Positions 1 to 10,548 of a DNA stretch of 64,000 bases are shown here, in pieces (positions within the stretch are counted from its first letter, which is position 1; each line of letters starts with the position of its first letter). Under the pieces are notes generated by a model. That model had not been told where the DNA came from and did not search any database. It saw only the letters and a program-made list of their open reading frames with translations. The translations under genes and the position numbers were made by a program. The stretch comes from Nitrospira japonica (GTDB taxonomy: Bacteria > Nitrospirota > Thermodesulfovibrionia > UBA6902): NCBI GenBank assembly GCA_020723105.1, contig DYJL01000001.1, forward strand, positions 124,001 through 188,000, read 5' to 3'.

Positions 1-288
1 ACGGTACTTGATCTTTATCCTGATATGGGAAATATAAACGAAAAAGATCAGGGGCCTTCATGTTCCTTTGAAGAGGCTCTACAAAGACAAGACCTCTTTA
101 TAAATCAATGGGTTGCTACGGCAGGCTTAGAGCTTCTCTGGAAGTTCTTTCGCAGGGGCTATATAACCGAAAGCGGGGCGTTTATCAGCCTGAATCCGCT
201 GACAATCAGATCCTTGCCGATTGATCCTGAGGTCTGGAGCAGGATGGGATGGGCGTATAAGGTGAGGAAGAGAAAGAAGGCAGCATAA
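1..288 (+). CDS. C-terminal part of a ThiF-like protein (PRTRC-type), truncated by window edge
   Basis: The reading frame is open from base 1 and ends at 288, so this is the 3' end of a gene that starts upstream. The visible ~95 residues include CSFEEALQRQDLFINQ, a leucine/tryptophan-rich helix and SLPIDPEVW. These resemble the C-terminus of the ThiF/E1-like adenylyltransferases of the plasmid PRTRC gene set. The catalytic Rossmann part lies outside the window, so the assignment rests on recall of the tail only. The plasmid-type genes that follow (RadC-like, SbcCD-like, DUF6094) support it. A hairpin terminator follows the stop codon directly. Confidence 0.5.
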   Translation, partial: TVLDLYPDMGNINEKDQGPSCSFEEALQRQDLFINQWVATAGLELLWKFFRRGYITESGAFISLNPLTIRSLPIDPEVWSRMGWAYKVRKRKKAA

Positions 289-296
289 ATCAATCA

Positions 297-334
297 GGGG
301 TATACATGGTTAATCCGGTATGCCCCTTTTTTTT
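297..334 (+). terminator. rho-independent terminator
   Basis: GGGGTATAC at 297-305 pairs with GTATGCCCC at 318-326 (one G-U pair) and is followed by eight T residues. It ends the ThiF-like transcript. Its 3' arm and loop resemble the hairpin at 7988-8020, so the two may share ancestry. Confidence 0.8.
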
Positions 335-381: not shown

Positions 382-1296
382 TTATTTCCACGGCCCCGGG
401 GCCGTCCATTTTCCACTAAACTTTTGCCTTCTTTTGACTGCATCGAGCGGTTTTAATAGAAATCGTTCTATCTCTTTTGCAACTGCTGAAAGTTCTTGTG
501 GAGCATGTGTTATATCTCCTTTCTTCAAGAAAGCTTTCCAAAGTGTTTGCCTGTCGGATTTTATTTCATATATTTCTTCAGCAAACAGATTCTTGTCTTC
601 CGGGAATGTCGTCTTGCGATGCGCGAAAGTTCTCTTTAGAGCTTCAGTGAGTTTTGAGCCGTCAAAATCAAATTGGTGCATCATAAGCCGGATATCGTAA
701 AAATCTTTCATCCTGCTGTTAAGAAGTCCCAGCTTTACCATAGCCTCAAATTTCTCGCTTATAACGCTCTCCGGCGGATATCCTTTAAGACGAGGCCTGG
801 GAAAATCTAAAATAGCAGGGTATTCAATTGCCTTTGGCCCTGGATATACACTGTCCCCGAAGGCGATATCAATCTGCATCGGTATCCGGGAACGCTGGAG
901 AAATCCCGCAAACTTCACGCGTACTCCTTCATAATCCGCATCCTCTTTTATCCGGTATCCTTTCACTGCGTCAGGATCAAATATAAGGCCGTCTGAAATC
1001 ACTTCAGTTTTACAGATGTCCTTTATCATTTTTTCAATACTCGCAACCTGGTTATCAAAGCGCGCCAGGAAATCAATATCGAGAGTGGTCCTCCGCTGCG
1101 GCACATGCCAGACTGTAAACATTAATGCGCCTTTGAGAATAAACTTATCAGCATATTCGGAGCGACTGAGCCGATAAAGAAATCTTTCCATTCCGAAATA
1201 TTGCAATATCTCCGCAAAAGGACGATGTGTTTCTCTCGCCTTATTCTGGAGCTGCCCTCGAACAGAGGCCTCTATGTTTTTAATATCTTTTTTCAT
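382..1296 (-). CDS. abiEii: AbiEii/AbiGii-family nucleotidyltransferase toxin
   Basis: A 304-residue nucleotidyltransferase-like protein, the toxin half of a type IV toxin-antitoxin (abortive infection) system. The N-terminal half has the polymerase-beta-type motif: KGALMF followed about 13 residues later by TLDIDF, whose two Asp residues would bind the metal. Later motifs EKFEAMVKLG and KDFYDIR match the conserved Lys and Asp positions of the family. Its ATG overlaps the upstream antitoxin stop by 4 nt, so the pair is translationally coupled. Known members of this family transfer nucleotides to RNA targets; the substrate here is unknown. It is a cargo gene pointing against the surrounding plasmid-type genes. 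Confidence 0.9.
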   Translation of the reverse strand: MKKDIKNIEASVRGQLQNKARETHRPFAEILQYFGMERFLYRLSRSEYADKFILKGALMFTVWHVPQRRTTLDIDFLARFDNQVASIEKMIKDICKTEVISDGLIFDPDAVKGYRIKEDADYEGVRVKFAGFLQRSRIPMQIDIAFGDSVYPGPKAIEYPAILDFPRPRLKGYPPESVISEKFEAMVKLGLLNSRMKDFYDIRLMMHQFDFDGSKLTEALKRTFAHRKTTFPEDKNLFAEEIYEIKSDRQTLWKAFLKKGDITHAPQELSAVAKEIERFLLKPLDAVKRRQKFSGKWTAPGPWK

Positions 1297-1895
1297 AGCA
1301 GGGCTTCGAGTATGGGCTTAATGACATTATCAACCCGGCAAATTTTAGCATACTGCATAATCTCATTAGGTTTTACTCCTTTTTCCGTTATAGCGATCTT
1401 AAGAGCGTCTCTGGCAATATTCACCCCTATCTTATTACGAAATTTAAAACAATCAGCTATCGTTTTGGCAAGGCTGTACACTCTGATTGTATATCCCTCT
1501 ATTTCATGCTTTTCGATTCCCGCTTCCCAGGCTTCTTGCGCGAAGCGATAAAACTTTACCGGGGGGTATGTAATTTTATAAGAACGTGATGAACGTGAAA
1601 TAGCAATGTCAACAACGCGAGGTATCTCATTTGTCGCTTCATGAAATGCAAGGGCAGAAATAAGGCAGATAACACCTTTTGGCGCCTGAAGAGACGCTGT
1701 CACAAGGTCGGGATGGGAAGCAAATTCAAAGTTAGATAGACGATAAAGGCCCCGGGCAATTTTTTCTACCTTCCCGTCTTTGACCAGCGCAGCAAGTGAA
1801 TCGGGGTGGAATCCTGTTTTCAGTATAGAAGAGAAGCGCACAACTCCACCGTGTCCTTTAATATAATTAATCATTTCTTGCAAGCTCTTTTCCAT
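1293..1895 (-). CDS. abiEi: AbiEi-family antitoxin, transcriptional repressor
   Basis: A 200-residue protein with an N-terminal winged-helix domain (residues 1-50, including RFSSILKTGFHPDSLAALV and GLYRL) and a C-terminal AbiEi antitoxin domain (SALAFHEATNEIP, YSLAKTIADCFKFRNKIG). AbiEi proteins neutralise AbiEii and repress their own promoter by binding inverted repeats. A perfect 12-bp inverted repeat sits just upstream of this start, which fits that mechanism. It overlaps the toxin gene by 4 nt and no strong Shine-Dalgarno precedes the ATG. Confidence 0.88.
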   Translation of the reverse strand: MEKSLQEMINYIKGHGGVVRFSSILKTGFHPDSLAALVKDGKVEKIARGLYRLSNFEFASHPDLVTASLQAPKGVICLISALAFHEATNEIPRVVDIAISRSSRSYKITYPPVKFYRFAQEAWEAGIEKHEIEGYTIRVYSLAKTIADCFKFRNKIGVNIARDALKIAITEKGVKPNEIMQYAKICRVDNVIKPILEALL

Positions 1896-1959: not shown

Positions 1960-2030
1960 TAACTCCCTTCCAACGCTTCTTTATCCTTTCAAATTGATTA
2001 AAAAAAGCAGTATGAAACTGAAGCCCCAAA

Positions 2031-2117
2031 GGTAATACATAACCAACAATTAACTTCACAGTAGACCTACGAACAGGACACGCATCAAGGGTTCTTGACC
2101 GGCATGTCCTTTTTTTG
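2031..2117 (+). promoter_or_regulatory. conserved leader-terminator element, copy A
   Basis: First of three copies of a block that starts GGTAATACATAA, continues to AGTAGACCTACGAA and then forms a terminator hairpin: AGGACA with TGTCCT, a nested TCAAG with CTTGA, then eight T. No plus-strand gene lies upstream between here and the abiE promoter, so this copy must sit in the 5' leader of the RadC-like gene that starts 72 nt later. It is a candidate attenuator or cis-regulatory RNA. Confidence 0.6.
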
Positions 2118-2188
2118 TCCTCAAACAGGATAAGCACACGCCAATTAATTCTATTAAATATTATTGCGTCAACAGATAGGAGGCTTGA

Positions 2189-2665
2189 ATGCAATACAAG
2201 TCTATGTACAGAATTGAAACGATCAAGATAAGAGAAAAAACACAGGCTTTCAATATACAAGCATGCTCGGCCAGAGAAATCTATGATGTTTTTAAATTCA
2301 TAGCATGCAGACCGCAGGAATCATTGTATGTTGTCTGCTTAAATTGCAAAAACAGAATCATCGGTTACAGCGAGATCGCAAAAGGGTCACTGAATACATG
2401 CGCCGTTGATATGAGGGAACTCGTTCGCATTCCGATTCTCATCAATGCGGCATCGGTCATTATCTTACACAATCATCCAAGCGGAGACAGTTGTCCTTCA
2501 AGGGATGATATAGCGATAACACACAGGATCAAAGATTCATTGTCGCTGTTCGGCATCAGATTGCTGGACCATATCGTTATTAGCGATGACAGTTTCACTT
2601 CTCTTTCAGAGAAGGGATTAATTGAAATGGGAGGATTAAGAGATGAAAATACTGCACTGCGGTGA
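2189..2665 (+). CDS. radC: RadC-like JAB/MPN-domain protein
   Basis: A 158-residue protein with the RadC core. The JAMM metal motif is LHNHPSGD at about residue 95, followed by DIAITHRIKDSLSLFG and LLDHIVISDD, the usual RadC C-terminal block. It lacks the N-terminal helix-hairpin-helix region of chromosomal RadC, as is typical of short RadC/YkfG-like proteins on plasmids and prophages. It leads an operon of DNA-metabolism genes and overlaps the SbcD-like gene by 23 nt. The biochemical role of RadC-like proteins is unsettled. Confidence 0.9.
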   Translation: MQYKSMYRIETIKIREKTQAFNIQACSAREIYDVFKFIACRPQESLYVVCLNCKNRIIGYSEIAKGSLNTCAVDMRELVRIPILINAASVIILHNHPSGDSCPSRDDIAITHRIKDSLSLFGIRLLDHIVISDDSFTSLSEKGLIEMGGLRDENTALR

Positions 2666-3836
2666 CATACACTTCAGAAACGACCTTGTCGATGAAATCA
2701 GTAAGTGCGCGGATTTTATGGTGGACACAGCAAAAAAAGAAAATGTGAACCTTTCAATTATTGCCGGGGATCTGTTCAACGAAAGGCACACTTATGATTC
2801 AGAGGCATTTATGTATGCCGTAAGTTTCATAAAAAAGCTTTCCGAAGTATCTCCGGTGTATGTTTTAAAGGGCACAAACTCCCACGACGGCACCAGCATT
2901 AAGTTTCTTGAAACCTTAAATACCGGACATCCGGTGTATGTGGCTGAAGAAATAGGATACACGATGTTCCTTACAGATTTTAAGACAGTTGATTATGAAA
3001 AATTAATCACCGGCCTGAAAAAAGGCGTTTACGCAAGCGCCATAATCTTAAGCATCCCTCCGGTATCAAAAGCGAATCTCCTTGCGCACGGTGATAACGG
3101 AATGGAAGAATCAAGGCTGGATACCATTGAGGCCCTTCGGAACGTGCTTCAGATGTTCGGCATGATAGTAGAGGAAGCCCGTTATGCCGATATCCCGGTA
3201 ATCCTTGTCGGACACCTCACCGTTACCGGCTCCACTTTAAGCACAGGCCAGCAAATGGTCGGAAGAGACATTGAACTTGGAGCAGGAGACCTCAGGATGG
3301 CGTTTGCTGACCTTGTCTGCTTAGGGCACATTCATAAAGTCCAATCCTGGGGTGAAATCTTTTACTCAGGGTCATTAACGAGGCTGAATTTCGGCGAAGA
3401 AGAGGCAAAGGGTTTTTGGATTCATGAACTATCAGGAAACAATCTGACTTCATCGCGGTTTATTGAAACACCGGCAAGAAAGATGATAACAGTTGACCTG
3501 GATAATGAGTCCACCGAGACTGAGCTGGCAAATATCCCGGAAGGGGCTTGTGTGAGAATCAAATACCAGACGACAGAGGATAAAGTCCACACATTCGATG
3601 AGCTTTCGCTTAAAGAAAATCTTCTCAATGCAGGCGCCTCAGAGATTAAGATAGAGAAAACGGTTATTCCTGTAGAAAGGGTACGCGCGGAAGGCGTATC
3701 GAAACTCAATTCCGTGGAAGAAAAACTCAGGAAATGGGCCGAAACAACGGGAATCGAAATAACCGGCAGCGTTATCGAAAAAATGCATCTGCTTGAGCAG
3801 GAAGATCATGAGTCGACACTTCTGGAAGTTGCTTAA
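2643..3836 (+). CDS. sbcD: SbcD-like metallophosphoesterase (DNA exonuclease subunit)
   Basis: A 397-residue calcineurin-like phosphoesterase. Metal motifs in order are GDIHF (residue 7), AGDLFN (about 40), GTNSHDG in place of GNHD (about 78), VGHLTV (about 197) and CLGHIHK (about 228). It resembles the Mre11/SbcD nuclease subunit and probably pairs with the SbcC-like ATPase at 8353-10548. The two are separated by about 4.5 kb, unlike the usual adjacent sbcDC order. GGGAGGA precedes the ATG, and the start lies inside the radC-like gene. Confidence 0.85.
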   Translation: MKILHCGDIHFRNDLVDEISKCADFMVDTAKKENVNLSIIAGDLFNERHTYDSEAFMYAVSFIKKLSEVSPVYVLKGTNSHDGTSIKFLETLNTGHPVYVAEEIGYTMFLTDFKTVDYEKLITGLKKGVYASAIILSIPPVSKANLLAHGDNGMEESRLDTIEALRNVLQMFGMIVEEARYADIPVILVGHLTVTGSTLSTGQQMVGRDIELGAGDLRMAFADLVCLGHIHKVQSWGEIFYSGSLTRLNFGEEEAKGFWIHELSGNNLTSSRFIETPARKMITVDLDNESTETELANIPEGACVRIKYQTTEDKVHTFDELSLKENLLNAGASEIKIEKTVIPVERVRAEGVSKLNSVEEKLRKWAETTGIEITGSVIEKMHLLEQEDHESTLLEVA

Positions 3837-3862
3837 GGAAATATATTCAAAGGAGGAAGAAA

Positions 3863-4252
3863 ATGGATCCCTTTTGGGAAGGAGCTGAAATCATAAGCCG
3901 ATATACACGGACTGATGCCATCAATGATGGACAGCTTATAGATGTTACGGATACAGCAAAAGAGGCAGGCTTTCTTTATCCAATTGCAGTGACACAGGCT
4001 GTCTGGGCTGATTATGTCGTACCGGATGAAAGGTCCCGGAAATACGGACAGGATGAGGCAGGCAGGTTGTGGGATATTCTCTGGATGCTCAAATATGCGA
4101 TCAAAAGAGGAGAGGGCGGGTCCAACTTGCTCTTCAGCGTCCACATGATCATGCAGGAAAAGAACAAGCGGCTTGTAAAGTTCAAATCCCTTTGTCACCC
4201 GGGCGATGCGGGAGAGCCGGTAATAACCATAATGATGCCTGATGAGGACTGA
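3863..4252 (+). CDS. DUF6573-family protein
   Basis: A 129-residue soluble protein that opens by describing an ISRYTRTDAINDGQLIDV segment, followed by FLYPIAVTQAVWADYV and RLWDILWMLKYAI. This pattern is typical of DUF6573, found next to DNA-metabolism genes on plasmids and conjugative elements. AAAGGAGG precedes the ATG. No catalytic residues are recognisable and the function is unknown. Confidence 0.75.
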   Translation: MDPFWEGAEIISRYTRTDAINDGQLIDVTDTAKEAGFLYPIAVTQAVWADYVVPDERSRKYGQDEAGRLWDILWMLKYAIKRGEGGSNLLFSVHMIMQEKNKRLVKFKSLCHPGDAGEPVITIMMPDED

Positions 4253-4281
4253 AAAAGGATGCCAACGAAAAGAGAATAGAA

Positions 4282-4363
4282 AGTAATACATAATCAATGA
4301 TTAGTTTTAAGTAGACTGACGAATTGAGCGTACTCATGTTTTACATGGGGCGCTCTTTTTTTT
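4282..4363 (+). promoter_or_regulatory. conserved leader-terminator element, copy B
   Basis: Second copy: AGTAATACATAA, then AGTAGACTGACGAA, then a hairpin with outer stem GAGCG/CGCTC and inner stem CATGT/ACATG, followed by eight T. It lies 30 nt after the DUF6573 gene and 27 nt before the next start codon, so it could terminate the first and control the second. The hairpin sequence differs from copy A while the upstream block is conserved. Confidence 0.6.
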
Positions 4364-4389
4364 CATTCAAAATAATGGAGGTATCAGAT

Positions 4390-5169
4390 ATGGATAAAAA
4401 CAATAAAATTATCTGCCTGTCACTCCGTCACTATCCAGCTAACTATCTTACGGATTATTACTGTCAGGAAGTAAGAAAGGGCGAGATGGCGGATGCAATA
4501 GAAATATTGAGGGAGCAGATAAAGGTAATCATAGAAAAGGTGGGGAAATCCACCATGCCGGAAAAGATGGCGGATACCAGATTTCTTTCGGCAGACGGAA
4601 AAAGACAGATACTGAAACAGTGGAAAACATTCATAACGAGCGGATTCAATCCGGAGAGGTTTACAAAAAGCGTATACGAACATCTTCATCTTCACTGCGG
4701 CTTTATTGCCCATTACAACAAGAGCGGTTTTTACTACACATACTGGAATGACGAGGTTATCCGTTATGCAAAAGATAACGGATATGATATCGGGCCTGCT
4801 CCGAAGACTTTCTACGAGTGGGAAAGATTTCTGAACGCCTTTAGCATATGGGGAGAGTATACCGACATCAACACAGCAATGATGATAGTCCTTGAAGATG
4901 AACTAACCGCCTTGATCAAAAAACTGACAAACGAGGCTAAAGGCATGTATAGACATGAGGTGGCGCATCTACGGTCCTGCTGGGAAAGCGAAAGAAAAGA
5001 TATTGAAGACGACATCAATGCTTTACATGAAGAGATCAGAAAAAAAGAGCTCGAATTAAATGAACTCACCCTCGAAAAATATCTTGAAATGACTAACAGC
5101 GATTATGAAGATATGTTCGGTGAGGAGGTCTTCTCAGACGTCAGCGAAATCCAGCTTGCCGTAGCGTAG
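4390..5169 (+). CDS. hypothetical protein with C-terminal coiled coil
   Basis: 259 residues from the ATG at 4390, chosen because AATGGAGG precedes it; an earlier in-frame ATG at 4324 lies inside the terminator element. The protein is soluble, rich in aromatic residues in its middle (HLHLHCGFIAHYNKSGFYY, YTYWND), and ends in a long Glu/Lys-rich helix (about residues 195-240) that looks like a coiled coil. I do not recognise the family. Its place between DUF6573 and DUF6094 genes suggests a mobile-element maintenance role. Confidence 0.75.
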   Translation: MDKNNKIICLSLRHYPANYLTDYYCQEVRKGEMADAIEILREQIKVIIEKVGKSTMPEKMADTRFLSADGKRQILKQWKTFITSGFNPERFTKSVYEHLHLHCGFIAHYNKSGFYYTYWNDEVIRYAKDNGYDIGPAPKTFYEWERFLNAFSIWGEYTDINTAMMIVLEDELTALIKKLTNEAKGMYRHEVAHLRSCWESERKDIEDDINALHEEIRKKELELNELTLEKYLEMTNSDYEDMFGEEVFSDVSEIQLAVA

Positions 5170-5243
5170 TTCAATAAAAACTCAAAATGGATTCCCGCCA
5201 AAGACATGCGGGAATGACGCCCAAAGATACAAACGGAGGAAAC

Positions 5244-6233
5244 ATGGCAAGACTTGAAGCACAAAAAAAGATGGGTTATTATCCGACCCCGGATGATACC
5301 CTGCGACATATCAAACAAAGAATCAATCTCTCACAGGATGCGGTAATACTTGACCCCTGCTGCGGCACAGGCGATGCCCTGAATGAAATTGCCTATGAAT
5401 TTAGAAATGACGATGATTACTTCGAGGCGATCAAATACGGCATCGAGCTTGACACCGAAAGGGCCTCTGAGGCAGGCAATCAGGTGCAAAAGCTTGTCTG
5501 CGGTAGCGCCTATGAGGTAGTCGTAAGGCCGATTGAAAGCTTTTCCATGCTTTTTCTTAACCCACCGTATGATTTCGAGGATGGTGACCGCATGGAATTC
5601 AGACTTCTGAAGCATTGTCACAAGTGGCTTATGCCCGGCGGCCTTCTGGTCTTTCTTGTGCCGGAGAATCTTTTTCTTATCACTAACGTAAGAAACTGGC
5701 TAAGCAGGAAGTATGATGATCTTCAAATCCACCGCTTTACCAGGAAAGACTATCCAAGTTTTAAACAGGTAGTTCTTTATGGGATCAAGGGGAAAGACGA
5801 CAATGAAAACGGCGTCTTCCCGATAGGTCCTTATCCTCACATTGAAGATTCTATAAGCGACGGCAAGAGGTATGACGTTCATCCTTCCTCAGAACCGGAG
5901 GTCTTTGAGCTTAAGACCATCACAACTGAGGACATCCGGTCATTTGAGGCCAAAGCGACTCAGAACATTGCGGAGACTATAAGCAGTTATCAGAGTGCTG
6001 GGGGGAACATCATTTCTCCCATATTCCCATTGCGGAAAGGTCATCTCGTATCACTGCTTATGTCTGGTGTCCTTAACGGCAAACTCCATTCAAACGGAAA
6101 GACACTCGTCTTTAAATGCTTCACTGACCGTCAGAGAAGCGTAAGGGAAGAAGATGACAGGCAGGTAACAACAGACAGCTACATATCCGGCATACGGGTG
6201 ATGGAGAAAGGGAGGTGGTACGATGTCATCTGA
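5244..6233 (+). CDS. DUF6094-family, N6-adenine methyltransferase-like protein
   Basis: 329 residues from the ATG at 5244, which follows GGAGGA. The N-terminal half is a class I SAM-dependent methyltransferase fold: YYPTP, the SAM-binding DPCCGTGDAL (about residue 37), the acidic strand YGIELD and the catalytic FLNPPYDF of N6-adenine methyltransferases. The C-terminal part lacks an obvious specificity domain. DUF6094 proteins are common on plasmids and integrative elements near radC and sbcCD-like genes. A DNA-modifying role is likely from the motifs but unproven. It overlaps the next gene by 11 nt. Confidence 0.85.
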   Translation: MARLEAQKKMGYYPTPDDTLRHIKQRINLSQDAVILDPCCGTGDALNEIAYEFRNDDDYFEAIKYGIELDTERASEAGNQVQKLVCGSAYEVVVRPIESFSMLFLNPPYDFEDGDRMEFRLLKHCHKWLMPGGLLVFLVPENLFLITNVRNWLSRKYDDLQIHRFTRKDYPSFKQVVLYGIKGKDDNENGVFPIGPYPHIEDSISDGKRYDVHPSSEPEVFELKTITTEDIRSFEAKATQNIAETISSYQSAGGNIISPIFPLRKGHLVSLLMSGVLNGKLHSNGKTLVFKCFTDRQRSVREEDDRQVTTDSYISGIRVMEKGRWYDVI

Positions 6234-6756
6234 ATTACTGCGCATTTCATGCAAGGGGATAACCGCTGTTGCGGATACCGTCTTATGGCAGGCAACTAAG
6301 TATGACAGTGTCTTTGCCTTTCTCAACTACTACGGATCGGAAAGTCAGGTAAGGGGCATCTTCGCGTCAATCACTTCAGGCGACCCTCTTATTGTTGAAA
6401 ACGCTGATGGCAGGAAGACCCTCAGAAAGAACTACCCAAGCTCGATGAAACTTAAAAGCTGGCGCTTCGGCTATGGCAAATACCAGGCAGCGCTCAGGGA
6501 CGACAATATACTTTCAGAGTGCATCATTGACCTGAACAACTCACCAACCGAAGCCTGGGACATGTTTCTCAAAAAAAGACGGATACCTTATCTCAAGGAA
6601 TGGATTCCATCCATCATGCGCCTTCTTGAGAAAGAAGGACTGGTTACACTGCTTACCGGTTATGGGAAGCTTAAGGCATGGAGATGGGAGGCAACGGACG
6701 ATGAGGCATGTGACCTCATAGTAAAGAAGATATTCAAAAAGGCTGCGGCGGCCTGA
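6223..6756 (+). CDS. hypothetical protein, coupled to the DUF6094 gene
   Basis: A 177-residue soluble protein starting inside the end of the methyltransferase-like gene, with GGGAGGTGG upstream. It contains ISCKGITAVADTVLWQATKYD and KSWRFGYGKYQAAL and ends in a basic AAAA tail. I recognise no domain. The 11-nt overlap implies coupled expression with the DUF6094 protein. Confidence 0.7.
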   Translation: MSSELLRISCKGITAVADTVLWQATKYDSVFAFLNYYGSESQVRGIFASITSGDPLIVENADGRKTLRKNYPSSMKLKSWRFGYGKYQAALRDDNILSECIIDLNNSPTEAWDMFLKKRRIPYLKEWIPSIMRLLEKEGLVTLLTGYGKLKAWRWEATDDEACDLIVKKIFKKAAAA

Positions 6757-6769
6757 ATCTCATTCTCTC

Positions 6770-6805
6770 AAGGGGTATATCCGTAATTTACGCGATATAC
6801 CCCTT
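6770..6805. promoter_or_regulatory. long perfect hairpin ahead of dnaN
   Basis: AAGGGGTATATC (6770-6781) pairs perfectly with GATATACCCCTT (6794-6805), and the inner CGTA/TACG extends it to about 16 bp with one bulged base. There is no T-tract, so it is either a weak bidirectional terminator or a binding site or RNA structure between the 6223-6756 gene and dnaN (ATG 6840). Confidence 0.6.
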
Positions 6806-6839
6806 CATTAATCAAATCATTAAAAGGAGAAATTCATAT

Positions 6840-7943
6840 ATGAAAATCATCGTAAAAAGCGAAGAGTTCAAGAAGACGCTTCAGGTAATTCAAGGGTTGA
6901 GCAATGATAGAGCCATGCCGGTCCTTGATCATTTTATCTTAAGCAATAACGGTAGTAACACCCTCATGGCAACGGACCTTACCACATCCATAAAGGAGAC
7001 CATAGACGTAGTAAAAGCGGAAGTGAAAGGCACGGTAGGTATTCCCCGGAAAAAGCTGTACGAAATAATCAACCAGATTGAGGGTGAGGTCACACTGGAG
7101 AGCTCCAAAGACAATTCATCGATAAAGGTACTGTCAGGAAACAGCAAGTTCAAGCTATCCTGCATCAATCCTTCTGATTACCCAACATTTCCGGAGGTGG
7201 AAGGTACGCTGAATATAGTGCTCGGCGCCAGGAAGCTTGTCGAGATGATAGAAAAGACTGCTCACTGCGTCAATTCTTTAAATGACACGAGATACGCCTT
7301 AGGCTGCCTGCTTATCCATGTAAAGCAGGGACGACTGAATATCGTAGGCACGGATGGCCATAGAATGGCGGTGATAGGCACGGACATAGAATCAGGGGAT
7401 GAAGACATACAGCTTCTTGTGCCGAAGTCATCTGTTCAGAGATTGAAACAGTTCCTGCTGCGAAGCGATGACGACAAGGTGACGATGAAGGTCTCAAAAG
7501 ACAGGATGAGTTTCTCATTTCCAGGCAGAGAGATCGTAATCAGGCTTATGGAAGGTACGTTTCCCGTATATGAAAAGATATCCGGAGAAATCGATAACGA
7601 CAAGAATGCCGATTTGTCGGTAGATGATCTCAGGGGCGCTTTAAAGAGGATGCTTATAGTAAGCAATGCTTCTAATGCGGTCAGATTCGAGTTTGAATCC
7701 AATCAGCTCATCCTAAGTTCATCTGAAGCAGGCGGCATAGGGCAGGGCAGAGAGGTCATTCCCGTTGAATATCGCGGCGAAAACCTGAGTATTGTTTTTA
7801 ATGCCAGGTATTTTCTTGACGCCTTAAATACGCTTACCGGCAATAAGGTGACGATAGGTTTAAAAGACCCGTTGAGCATTTCAAGGATGATGGAGGCAAA
7901 CAATCCCGACTACTGTTTTGTTGCCATGCCCATGAGAGGCTAA
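6840..7943 (+). CDS. dnaN: DNA polymerase III sliding clamp (beta subunit)
   Basis: 367 residues, the normal length of a three-domain beta clamp. Recognisable blocks are ALGCLLIHVKQGRLNIVGTD, DGHRMAV and the C-terminal GREVIPVEYRGENLSIVFNA, ending in YCFVAMPMRG, which corresponds to the usual VVMPMRL end. The clamp tethers polymerases and repair enzymes to DNA. A clamp gene among plasmid-type genes, with no dnaA nearby, is probably an element-encoded second copy. AAAAGGAG precedes the ATG. Confidence 0.95.
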   Translation: MKIIVKSEEFKKTLQVIQGLSNDRAMPVLDHFILSNNGSNTLMATDLTTSIKETIDVVKAEVKGTVGIPRKKLYEIINQIEGEVTLESSKDNSSIKVLSGNSKFKLSCINPSDYPTFPEVEGTLNIVLGARKLVEMIEKTAHCVNSLNDTRYALGCLLIHVKQGRLNIVGTDGHRMAVIGTDIESGDEDIQLLVPKSSVQRLKQFLLRSDDDKVTMKVSKDRMSFSFPGREIVIRLMEGTFPVYEKISGEIDNDKNADLSVDDLRGALKRMLIVSNASNAVRFEFESNQLILSSSEAGGIGQGREVIPVEYRGENLSIVFNARYFLDALNTLTGNKVTIGLKDPLSISRMMEANNPDYCFVAMPMRG

Positions 7944-7944
7944 A

Positions 7945-8020
7945 GGTAATACACAGATAGCAATTATCTTTAAGTAGACTTACGAAAAGGCATATTCGGT
8001 TTATCCGGTATGCCTTTTTT
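7945..8020 (+). promoter_or_regulatory. conserved leader-terminator element, copy C
   Basis: Third copy: it begins one base after the dnaN stop with GGTAATACACAG, continues to AGTAGACTTACGAA and then forms the hairpin AAGGCATA/TATGCCTT followed by a T-tract. It lies 31 nt before the start of the small membrane protein gene at 8052. The hairpin resembles the terminator at 297-334. Confidence 0.6.
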
Positions 8021-8051: not shown

Positions 8052-8396
8052 ATGAACAAATTTATTAATATGGCTGAGAAGGCCTTTTATGTTGTGCTTG
8101 TATCGCTGGGAGCAATCTTTATTCTCTCGGCTTTTCTTGGAAGTTCCATGCTTAATATGGTTACCCGGTTGTTTTTGGGCGGAACGATGAGCATCTGCGG
8201 ACTGCTTGAGCTTATCCCTGATTTTTTCAAAAGTTGCCTGCAAAAATCTCTTTTGGTAATAAGGCTTATTCTGATCAGCTCATATGCCATACAATCAGGC
8301 ATTACAAAGAAATTTAAGTCAGTCTTTATAAAACGCAAAAGGAGGACATCCAATGAGACCGATCTCATTAAGACTTCGCGGATTCAAAGGCATTAG
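8052..8396 (+). CDS. small membrane protein
   Basis: 114 residues from the ATG at 8052, which has AAAGGAGG upstream. Two hydrophobic segments are visible (about residues 11-32 and 34-55), followed by a basic tail with KKFKSVFIKRKRR. The last 44 nt overlap the SbcC-like gene, so the two are probably co-translated. No family is recognised. Confidence 0.7.
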   Translation: MNKFINMAEKAFYVVLVSLGAIFILSAFLGSSMLNMVTRLFLGGTMSICGLLELIPDFFKSCLQKSLLVIRLILISSYAIQSGITKKFKSVFIKRKRRTSNETDLIKTSRIQRH

Positions 8397-10548
8397 ATCA
8401 AGATCCGGAAAAGATGAAATTGCCCTGGACTTTTCAGATATAAAAGGTCTTGCTGCAATTGCAGGATCAAACGGAGCCGGAAAAACAACAGTTCTTGATA
8501 ATCTTCATCCGTACAGGATAATGCCTTACAGGGCAGGCAGTTATTCCCCAAAGTCATTTTCCTTCTATAACGAATGCTATGGCAGGGACGCATCAAAGGA
8601 AATTCTTTTCGAGTTTGAAGGCAGACTATACAAAAGTCTTCTGCTCATAGACGCTGAGAAGAAAAAGCAGGAAGCGTATCTTTTCTTGAAAGCTGGAGAG
8701 CAGTGGCAGCCTCTTTGTGACGGCAAGGTTGAAAACTACGATAATATGATCAACTCACTGTTAGGCTCGCCCCAGTTGTTTTTCACAAGCGTGTTTCGCT
8801 GCCAGGACGCCGCTAAATTAAGCGATTATACGAAGGGTGAGATTAAGGACATTTTTGTCGAGTTACTTGGGATAGAGTCACTGAAGCTCAGAGGATTAAA
8901 GGCAAAGGAACTTAAAGACTCACAGTTAAGGCAGCTTGAATTGCTTACAAAGGAGCAAACCCGTCTTTCCGCTGACATAGAGACTGCTAAGAAAGCAACT
9001 GAAGAGGCTGAGCAATATGAAAAGCAACTTAAAGAGATATCCGGCTACATCCATGAAGCGGAACTGAAAAAGGAAGGCATCCTTTCAGAACTTCAGTCCG
9101 TAAAAGCGGAGATCGCAGTCAATGAGAATCTCCAGAAAGAAAAGAATTCCCTTGAAGGAGAGGCAAACAACATCAGGACAAAAATAAGCCAGCTTAGACA
9201 GACTGCAAGTAAGGTGGATGAGGTCAGAAGAGCTTCTGTGATGGAAATAAAGCTTTTACATGATATTGGAGCCCTGAAAAAGGAGCTTTCAGATACGGAA
9301 ACCGTATTAGAGAATCTGAACAGGATATTTTCGGATATGAAGTGCATGGAGACCGATATAGCGGAAAAGCAAAAAGTTCTTTCAGAGTTATCCTTAACGA
9401 GAAGACATAAGTTGAGCTCCCTGAAAACGGAGCTTGAAGGCGCTCAGAAGTCCCGCAAGTTGCTTGACAACGTTCCCTGCGGGTTTGAATTGCACGCCCA
9501 ATGCCCGCTTCTTAAAGATGCTGTAGAAGCTAAAAACTCTATAACAAAGCTGCTTGCCGCGACATTTCAGGTAAAGGAACCGTCATCAGAGGAAAAGAGG
9601 CTGGAATCAGAAATTGCTTTGCTTCAAAACAGAATCGCATCAGCAGGAAATATCAGGGACAGTCTGAACGTCTCCAGTAAAGAGAAGGAAGGGATCAAGA
9701 GAAAAATATCTAATGCGGAAAAGGAACTTGAGAGAGTGCGCCTGCTCAGCAAGCTTTTACCGGAAGTGGTGCTTGCTGAAAAAAGCATCCCGGAACTTGA
9801 GGAGTCTCTTAAGAGGATTGAAGAAAAGCTCAACATCATTGTTCCAAACGATGGTCTTAAACAAAAAGAGCAGGCTTTAAATGGAACATTGACCGAACTG
9901 CAGAGGAAAAGAGCCGCGCTTTTAAAGAGAGAGGCTGAAATACGTCAGCATATCGGAGAAAAAACCGCGCTTATTAAAAAGGGCAATGATTCGGCAAAAG
10001 CCCTTTCCGGGATAAAACCGAAAATTGAGAAGATTACTCAGGACATATCCGAATGGACAATCCTGGAGAAGGCATTCAGCAATGAAGGCATTATTGCACT
10101 TGAAATTGATGATGCCGGCCCCACGATAAGCGCCATCGCAAATGATCTGCTTTTGAGCTGTTTCGGACCGAGGTTCTCCGTAAGGATCGACACCCAGGTT
10201 GCAAAAGCTGACGGAAAGGGACTTAAGGAGACATTTGATATCGTTATATTCGATTCGGAAAGGAATGAATCGAAGAGTCTTCGCAGTATGTCGGGCGGCG
10301 AAAAAGTGTGGATTGAAGAGGCGGTTACCCGCGCCATCTCTCTTTATAACTCATCAAAGAGCGGCAAGAAATACCTGACCCTTTTCACTGATGAAAAAGA
10401 CGGCGCTCTGGACCATCAGAAGAAAAAAGAGTTCATCGCCATGAAGAGGAAGGTTTTAGATCTCGGCGGATACGATCTGGAATTGTTTATCTCGCAATCA
10501 CCTGAAATACAGGAGGTTGCGGATTATACGATTTCGCTCACTGCATAA
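8353..10548 (+). CDS. sbcC: SbcC/Rad50-like ATPase
   Basis: A 731-residue SMC-like ATPase. Walker A GSNGAGKTT lies near residue 38. Long coiled-coil arms follow, broken by a hook-like CGFELHAQCPLL near residue 377, where Rad50 and SbcC carry a Cys-x-x-Cys zinc hook; here the two Cys are eight residues apart. The ABC signature SMSGGEKVW and Walker B-like LTLFTDEKDGALD are near the C-terminus. It should act with the SbcD-like nuclease at 2643-3836 on DNA ends or hairpins. It is shorter than E. coli SbcC (about 1050 residues), as in plasmid and phage homologues. AGGAGG precedes the ATG. Confidence 0.88.
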   Translation: MRPISLRLRGFKGIRSRSGKDEIALDFSDIKGLAAIAGSNGAGKTTVLDNLHPYRIMPYRAGSYSPKSFSFYNECYGRDASKEILFEFEGRLYKSLLLIDAEKKKQEAYLFLKAGEQWQPLCDGKVENYDNMINSLLGSPQLFFTSVFRCQDAAKLSDYTKGEIKDIFVELLGIESLKLRGLKAKELKDSQLRQLELLTKEQTRLSADIETAKKATEEAEQYEKQLKEISGYIHEAELKKEGILSELQSVKAEIAVNENLQKEKNSLEGEANNIRTKISQLRQTASKVDEVRRASVMEIKLLHDIGALKKELSDTETVLENLNRIFSDMKCMETDIAEKQKVLSELSLTRRHKLSSLKTELEGAQKSRKLLDNVPCGFELHAQCPLLKDAVEAKNSITKLLAATFQVKEPSSEEKRLESEIALLQNRIASAGNIRDSLNVSSKEKEGIKRKISNAEKELERVRLLSKLLPEVVLAEKSIPELEESLKRIEEKLNIIVPNDGLKQKEQALNGTLTELQRKRAALLKREAEIRQHIGEKTALIKKGNDSAKALSGIKPKIEKITQDISEWTILEKAFSNEGIIALEIDDAGPTISAIANDLLLSCFGPRFSVRIDTQVAKADGKGLKETFDIVIFDSERNESKSLRSMSGGEKVWIEEAVTRAISLYNSSKSGKKYLTLFTDEKDGALDHQKKKEFIAMKRKVLDLGGYDLELFISQSPEIQEVADYTISLTA

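Follow-up and report, generated by a model that had tools for sequence, protein, structure and literature searches.

The stretch of DNA analysed here, hereafter the window, comprises 64,000 nucleotides (nt) of Nitrospira japonica (assembly GCA_020723105.1, contig DYJL01000001.1, positions 124,001 to 188,000; G000:C57:124001-188000) and is part of a 265-kb contig, C57. Near its start, three copies (A, B and C) of a short conserved leader, each followed by a predicted intrinsic terminator, precede gene series of a mobile element. An initial annotation had described them as three blocks at matching spacing, and a pattern scan recovered their exact positions, 2032-2073, 4283-4323 and 7946-7986, all conforming to GTAATACA-N19/20-AGTAGACNNACGAA. 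Since 20 fixed bases at near-constant spacing occur three times on one strand within 6 kb, the motif is not a product of chance; pattern scans found no fourth copy in the window. The features of the region, in window coordinates, are the following (R1 scores in bits).

2028-2073, plus strand: leader copy A, R1 score 58.1 bits
2032-2039, plus strand: box of copy A, GUAAUACA, with an A/U-rich spacer after it
2060-2073, plus strand: mini-hairpin of copy A, AGUA-G(ACCUA)C-GAA
2075-2116, plus strand: intrinsic terminator of A, stem starting 1 nt past GAA, then 7 T; -14.8 kcal/mol
2189-2665, plus strand: radC-like gene, the first behind leader A (Pfam RadC, 7e-37)
2643-3836, plus strand: SbcD-like metallophosphoesterase (Pfam Metallophos, 4e-10)
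3863-4252, plus strand: DUF6573 protein, the final gene ahead of leader B
4279-4323, plus strand: leader copy B, AGUA-G(ACUGA)C-GAA, 52.4 bits
4326-4363, plus strand: intrinsic terminator of B, 8 T; -17.3 kcal/mol
4390-5169, plus strand: protein of unknown function, first gene behind leader B
5244-6233, plus strand: DUF6094 methyltransferase, whose homologue in genome G059 sits directly behind a leader
6223-6756, plus strand: protein of unknown function with homologues in the elements of G097 and G059
6840-7943, plus strand: DNA polymerase III beta clamp DnaN, whose homologue in G101 sits directly behind a leader
7942-7986, plus strand: leader copy C, starting on the dnaN stop codon, AGUA-G(ACUUA)C-GAA, 52.5 bits
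7984-8020, plus strand: intrinsic terminator of C, its predicted stem taking in the GAA of the leader; -17.6 kcal/mol
8052-8396, plus strand: small membrane-protein-like open reading frame (ORF) behind leader C
8353-10548, plus strand: SbcC-like ATPase in the transcription unit behind leader C (Pfam AAA_23, 1.3e-4)

The hairpin and T-tract that had been reported after each copy are supported by RNA folding, the leader-terminator pieces reaching -15 to -18 kcal/mol with z-scores of -1.9 (A), -4.1 (B) and -4.1 (C). A simple terminator scan with a strict stem rule caught copy B alone, while folding shows A and C clearly. The distances from the ends of the T-tracts to the start codons, which have good ribosome sites, are 27-72 nt, as first described.

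A scan of the whole contig yielded 10 leaders, every one on the plus strand, at C57 positions 86726, 90977, 114399, 115396, 120060, 126028 (A), 128279 (B), 131942 (C), 223134 and 225187; the remaining 93 of the 94 contigs of this genome, G000, contain none. A further hit at 89094 was not counted, being devoid of the G-C pair and of a gene just after it. The leader reading had been offered with the proviso that the blocks might prove to be only 3' ends of upstream genes. It survived this challenge, because a divergent gene lies 42-132 nt upstream of five of the leaders (86726, 90977, 114399, 120060 and 126028), meaning that at no fewer than these five sites the leader RNA must start close by and the terminator then precedes the first gene. 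Several copies are thus true 5' leaders and not 3' ends. Copy A has no near gene upstream on its own strand, as had been noted: an AbiEii/AbiEi toxin-antitoxin pair (window 382-1895, minus strand) separates it from the preceding plus-strand gene. Copies B, C and 115396 stand inside gene series. No conserved promoter (-35/-10) was found upstream of the motif.

By inspection, the gene divergent from leader 120060 (C57 119321-119989, minus strand) encodes a LexA-like repressor, a hint that the regulon of the element may be tied to SOS control. Leader 223134 (L024:3134) lies between the arms of an inverted repeat, TCACCTCCCTTC ... GAAGGGAGGTGA, which might base-pair with the downstream gene's ribosome site.

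Among 84,980 species genomes, the exact pattern was present in one further genome, the Nitrospiraceae metagenome-assembled genome SURF_45, where the copy (L010:2033-2077) is an orthologue of B, terminator included. Relatives, up to 298 genomes, were searched with a looser pattern and two covariance models. This search, of the kind that the initial annotation had recommended, recovered members of the leader family in mobile elements of the same class, namely in genomes G009 (whose leader contig is the same contig as that of SURF_45), G006, G034, G187, G097, G059 and G101, which belong to several families; the leader-bearing sequences are mobile elements in at least seven other genomes of the class. 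In viral contigs the exact pattern was absent, looser patterns gave coding or chance matches alone, and no protein relatives were found. On plasmids of other phyla with a related TraD, neither the leader nor the NusG-like protein introduced below was found; blast against plasmids gave weak hits only.

Some hits in relatives belong to other repeats and were left out of the counts. Those in G085, G116 and G156 correspond to a conserved repeat of about 95 bp without a terminator; in three genera of one family (L092:6836, L093:8013, L094:6767) this repeat holds a near-perfect leader sequence, and one copy precedes a transposase-like ORF. The hits in G004, G006:C55 and G026 represent a different repeat (AGTAGACAACCCCGATAGTCGAA...). 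A conserved repeat (AAAGGTAATATACAGACAACTATTAACTTCGAGTAGACAACCCCGATAGTCGAA...), present in L107, L108 and L120, is leader-like with a long insertion in the loop.

Besides RadC-SbcD-DUF6573 (A), the protein of unknown function with the DUF6094 methyltransferase and DnaN (B), and SbcC (C), the genes behind the C57 leaders include an ArdC-type antirestriction protein, a helicase, a Gp3-like protein, a CHC2/Toprim primase with a gene beside it that looks ribonucleotide-reductase-like, and a small gene followed by a TraD-like coupling protein. An F-type transfer region occupies about 50-86 kb of C57 (names from sequence and from plasmid relatives), and the presence of a tRNA together with apparently chromosomal genes on this contig suggests that the element is integrated. 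The positions of the leaders are kept between genomes, although the element proteins share just about 30-76% identity: a leader stands before the primase in C57, G034, G059 and G187, before the Gp3-like gene in C57, G034 and G097, before the TraD operon in C57 and G187, and before the SbcD set in C57 and G097. The leaders are one regulon of one mobile-element family and not a metabolic class.

A strong predicted intrinsic terminator follows 19 of the 22 leaders outside G059, which carries a divergent element; the corresponding figures are 4% for random sites and about 4% for a set of 53 genes of the same contig that have ribosome sites but no leader. In all 19 cases the stem begins 0-2 nt past GAA or takes GAA in; the GAA strand is part of the stem in 11 copies and abuts it in the others. 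The stem sequences themselves are unrelated between copies.

Alignment of the leaders, which are about 45 nt long and mostly unpaired outside the hairpin, gives a constant anatomy: a GUAAUAYA box, an A/U-rich spacer of about 20 nt, the element AGUA-G-N4..8-C-GAA, and then the terminator. The consensus first drawn from A, B and C holds for these three, but its AATTA stretch is merely A/T-rich in other copies, and AGTAGAC-N2-ACGAA had to be loosened to AGTA-G-N4..8-C-GAA to accommodate them. This signature is present in nearly all copies; AGUA, the G-C pair and GAA are constant, while the loop, of 4-8 nt, differs in length and sequence (ACNNA as in ACCUA and ACUGA, ACCA, GAAA, GUAA, UUUUAA and others). 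An AGUA/GAA arrangement stacked on a Watson-Crick pair is what we take to be the signature of the bulged-G (sarcin-ricin/loop E) motif, and the mini-hairpin likely adopts such a fold. As to compensatory changes, which had been proposed as a check, the second inner pair of loops of at least 6 nt is Watson-Crick in 8 of 12 cases, comprising G-C, A-U, U-A and C-G types (permutation p 0.02), so that it varies compatibly, if weakly; the closing G-C pair never varies and gives no covariation information, and it also belonged to the search pattern. Further pairing beyond the hairpin is unsupported. In particular, an antiterminator helix joining the terminator arm to the sequence 5' of AGUA was rejected, matched shuffles scoring equally high (p 0.17-0.33); the high raw pairing results from base composition. 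That the leader belongs to no known class agrees with an Rfam gathering-cutoff scan of the window, which returned 0 matches, and with a permissive scan of copy A, which returned chance matches alone.

A candidate for a protein that recognizes the leaders is encoded within the regulon. The operon behind leader 90977 contains, just before TraD, a gene (G000:C57:92408-92830) for a protein of 140 amino acids with a KOW domain above the Pfam cut-off (23.9 bits, 3.4e-5). Matches to Spt5/NusG families fall below the cut-offs (e.g., Spt5 TIGR00405, 4.8e-5), and the NGN model PF02357 does not detect the protein. A single-sequence structure model was set aside (predicted local distance difference test, pLDDT, 37), whereas a model built from 3 homologues reached a pLDDT of 71 and had as best Foldseek matches archaeal Spt5 (8.6e-7), NusG and RfaH. 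These matches extend over both domains, with a poor whole-chain superposition owing to domain orientation. The protein is therefore predicted to be a divergent NusG/Spt5-like protein of NGN+KOW fold. The same genome also encodes a housekeeping NusG (at C53) as well as a protein that is RfaH/UpxY-like (at C88). Among the 298 relatives, the NusG-like protein was found in G000, G059 and G101 only (E about 1e-65), and all three carry leaders. The association between protein and leader is suggestive.

The box also occurs without the hairpin. A bare GTAATACA/GTAATATA box stands just ahead of ParR-like/ParM operons in three elements, the NusG-like gene of G101 has a bare GUAAUAYA box directly ahead of its start codon, and another such box precedes the G059 operon that holds the NusG-like gene. 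The bare-box sites are L011:8954-8979 (minus strand), L088:3275-3301 (plus), G059 C1:209579-209631 (minus) and L047 at about 280-300 (plus). G059 encodes in addition a second NusG-family protein, RfaH/UpxY-like in appearance (C1:222547-223071, plus strand), about 15 kb from its Spt5-like paralogue.

On balance, the leaders are probably attenuators of one conjugative-element regulon that are opened by an antitermination factor, with the NusG/Spt5-like protein as the best candidate. Recognition of RNA rather than DNA, antitermination itself and the identity of the factor are the parts that we infer. By default, RNA polymerase would halt at the intrinsic terminator abutting each leader. The nascent GUAAUAYA box and mini-hairpin would serve as the recognition site for an element-specific antitermination factor which, bound to the emerging RNA and the elongation complex, would allow the polymerase to read through the neighbouring terminator. 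In this way, the operons for replication, establishment and transfer would open in concert. The NusG/Spt5-like protein, the best candidate for this factor, is itself encoded in an operon behind a leader, next to TraD. More tentatively, conjugative-element Spt5-like NusG paralogues of the Nitrospirota might in general read this new RNA site abutting terminators as an element-wide switch, with the bare boxes before the par genes and the paralogue's start codon adding autoregulation, a wider proposal that seems possible rather than probable.

Several results weigh against this reading. The covariation support for the hairpin is thin. In G059, a strong adjacent terminator is found at 1 of 9 leaders, and several of them lead straight into a ribosome site, so in this element the signal might work through terminators that are weaker or farther away, or in some other manner. 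No NusG-like protein was found in five leader genomes (G009, G006, G034, G187 and G097). The assemblies of G187 and G009 are fragmentary, and draft quality may explain some of the missing genes, but hardly that of G097, which is 99% complete with a 100-kb contig. Moreover, G059 and G101 were first scanned because of their NusG-like protein, so that their co-occurrence is not independent, and in the unbiased R1 search alone the co-occurrence of protein and leader is modestly above chance.

The genomes with leaders in which no NusG-like protein was found (among them G097, G034 and G006) would be expected if the leader were an autonomous antiterminator RNA of the HK022 put, EAR or canT type, acting alone or with host factors and leaving the NusG-like protein as a coincidence or a mere processivity factor. 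Against it, put-type RNAs are larger folded structures, whereas this leader is short and mostly unpaired; besides, many terminator-paired copies would be needless if one copy made the polymerase processive. Both phages and conjugative elements do provide examples of RNA-only or RNA-first systems (PMC9378689, PMC8955417, PMC11658703), and we regard this explanation as rather unlikely but the foremost of the rivals. Slightly less probable is local antitermination by another leader-binding protein of the element, similar to RAT/BglG or ANTAR systems. A GAA strand within or abutting the terminator stem is the geometry expected of a competing small RNA site, and leader elements share genes of unknown function, such as window 6223-6756; against it, no BglG/PRD or ANTAR domain was seen in that part of the element proteins that was scanned.

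A signal read at the DNA level, either a promoter/operator or an ops-like non-template site for an RfaH-type factor, is improbable. RfaH, a NusG-family member, does read non-template DNA (PMC7819879), and GTAATAYA half boxes stand alone just before par-operon start codons. However, the box-hairpin spacing varies by several nt and the loop length by 4 nt, unlike in promoters, a promoter within the motif would put the terminator less than about 40 nt from the start, and upstream -35/-10 elements are not conserved. The form of the leader, a conserved 5' part followed by a variable terminator, would suit a riboswitch or another metabolite leader, and bulged-G modules are found in riboswitches, T-boxes among them. 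Yet the targets, genes for replication, establishment and transfer in a single mobile element, are unrelated to one another, which makes a metabolite riboswitch unlikely, no copy exists elsewhere in the genome, alternative pairing of leader and terminator is unsupported and Rfam gave no match, all of which leaves this explanation very improbable. Of the original attenuator or riboswitch-like interpretation, then, the conserved cis-acting leader before divergent terminators stands and the riboswitch likeness does not; a leader that is protein-dependent or acts on RNA polymerase fits better. Least credible of all is that the copies only terminate the upstream genes, with a motif in common ahead of the stems, or that they are a dispersed repeat. 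Copies B, C, 115396 and that of SURF_45 do lie closely behind a same-strand gene, but the divergent genes ahead of the five leaders listed above speak against this, and flanks and stems are unrelated in sequence while the placement next to genes is conserved from genus to genus.

An attenuator opened by a NusG-family protein has a close counterpart in LoaP, a NusG paralogue that acts with an RNA hairpin and a leader terminator in the dfn/mln operons (PMC12691694). Both cases would combine a NusG-family paralogue, a short 5'-leader RNA hairpin, a terminator before the first gene and a few dedicated operons. They differ in that the LoaP hairpin is of the UNCG type with a pause site between hairpin and terminator, whereas here a box and an AGUA/GAA hairpin, with loops closed by G-C and not of the UNCG type, abut the terminator; the site is copied before many mobile-element operons, and the best matches of the protein are Spt5-like NGN-KOW proteins. 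The order of box, spacer and hairpin recalls the lambda nut/N and rrn boxA systems, in which a single-stranded conserved box, a spacer and a small hairpin are presented in the nascent RNA. There, the box sequence is another one; here, the terminators are adjacent and not distant, and no N-like peptide is known. The BglG/SacY RAT is similarly placed, being a short conserved RNA site that shares sequence with the 5' arm of a terminator which itself diverges, but it has a longer hairpin, of a kind not seen here, and a PRD protein, not seen among the proteins scanned.

Antitermination borne by RNA is known from conAn (pLS20), canT (Tn916), HK022 put and EAR (PMC8955417, PMC11658703, PMC9378689), two of these systems guarding transfer genes in conjugative elements (PMC8955417, PMC11658703). 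As described, they employ a single RNA element that heads a long operon, in contrast to the many copies, one per transcription unit, described here, and the conjugative ones (conAn and canT) have Gram-positive hosts. Specialised NusG paralogues tied to conjugation operons, as the C57 protein would be, are represented by RfaH/ops and ActX (PMC7819879). In the RfaH case, ops is a DNA element (GGCGGTAGCGT), from which the leader consensus differs, RfaH acts mainly on Rho-dependent termination, and the C57 protein, as said, escapes PF02357.

The logic of antitermination guarding conjugation genes is thus known from conAn, canT and RfaH/ops (PMC8955417, PMC11658703, PMC7819879). Three things look undescribed: the RNA site, the fact that it is repeated ahead of many transcription units, and the subfamily of Spt5-like paralogues; the literature searched holds no description of this leader RNA system, which is not proof of absence. 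The antitermination systems known so far from mobile elements are those of a few phages, of conjugative elements of Gram-positive bacteria and of plasmids that depend on RfaH, with no studied example found from the Nitrospirota. The present case would add a regulon whose many operons, all in one large element, are each preceded by a copy of one RNA site with a terminator. Should the NusG-like protein prove to be the factor, it would join LoaP as a second NusG paralogue that reads RNA, its ligand being a bulged-G motif. The leader also provides a searchable signature by which such elements can be found and delimited.

Finally, two intergenic plus-strand hairpins without the leader motif, one of them with a T-tract, were observed in the window at 300-340 and 6765-6810.

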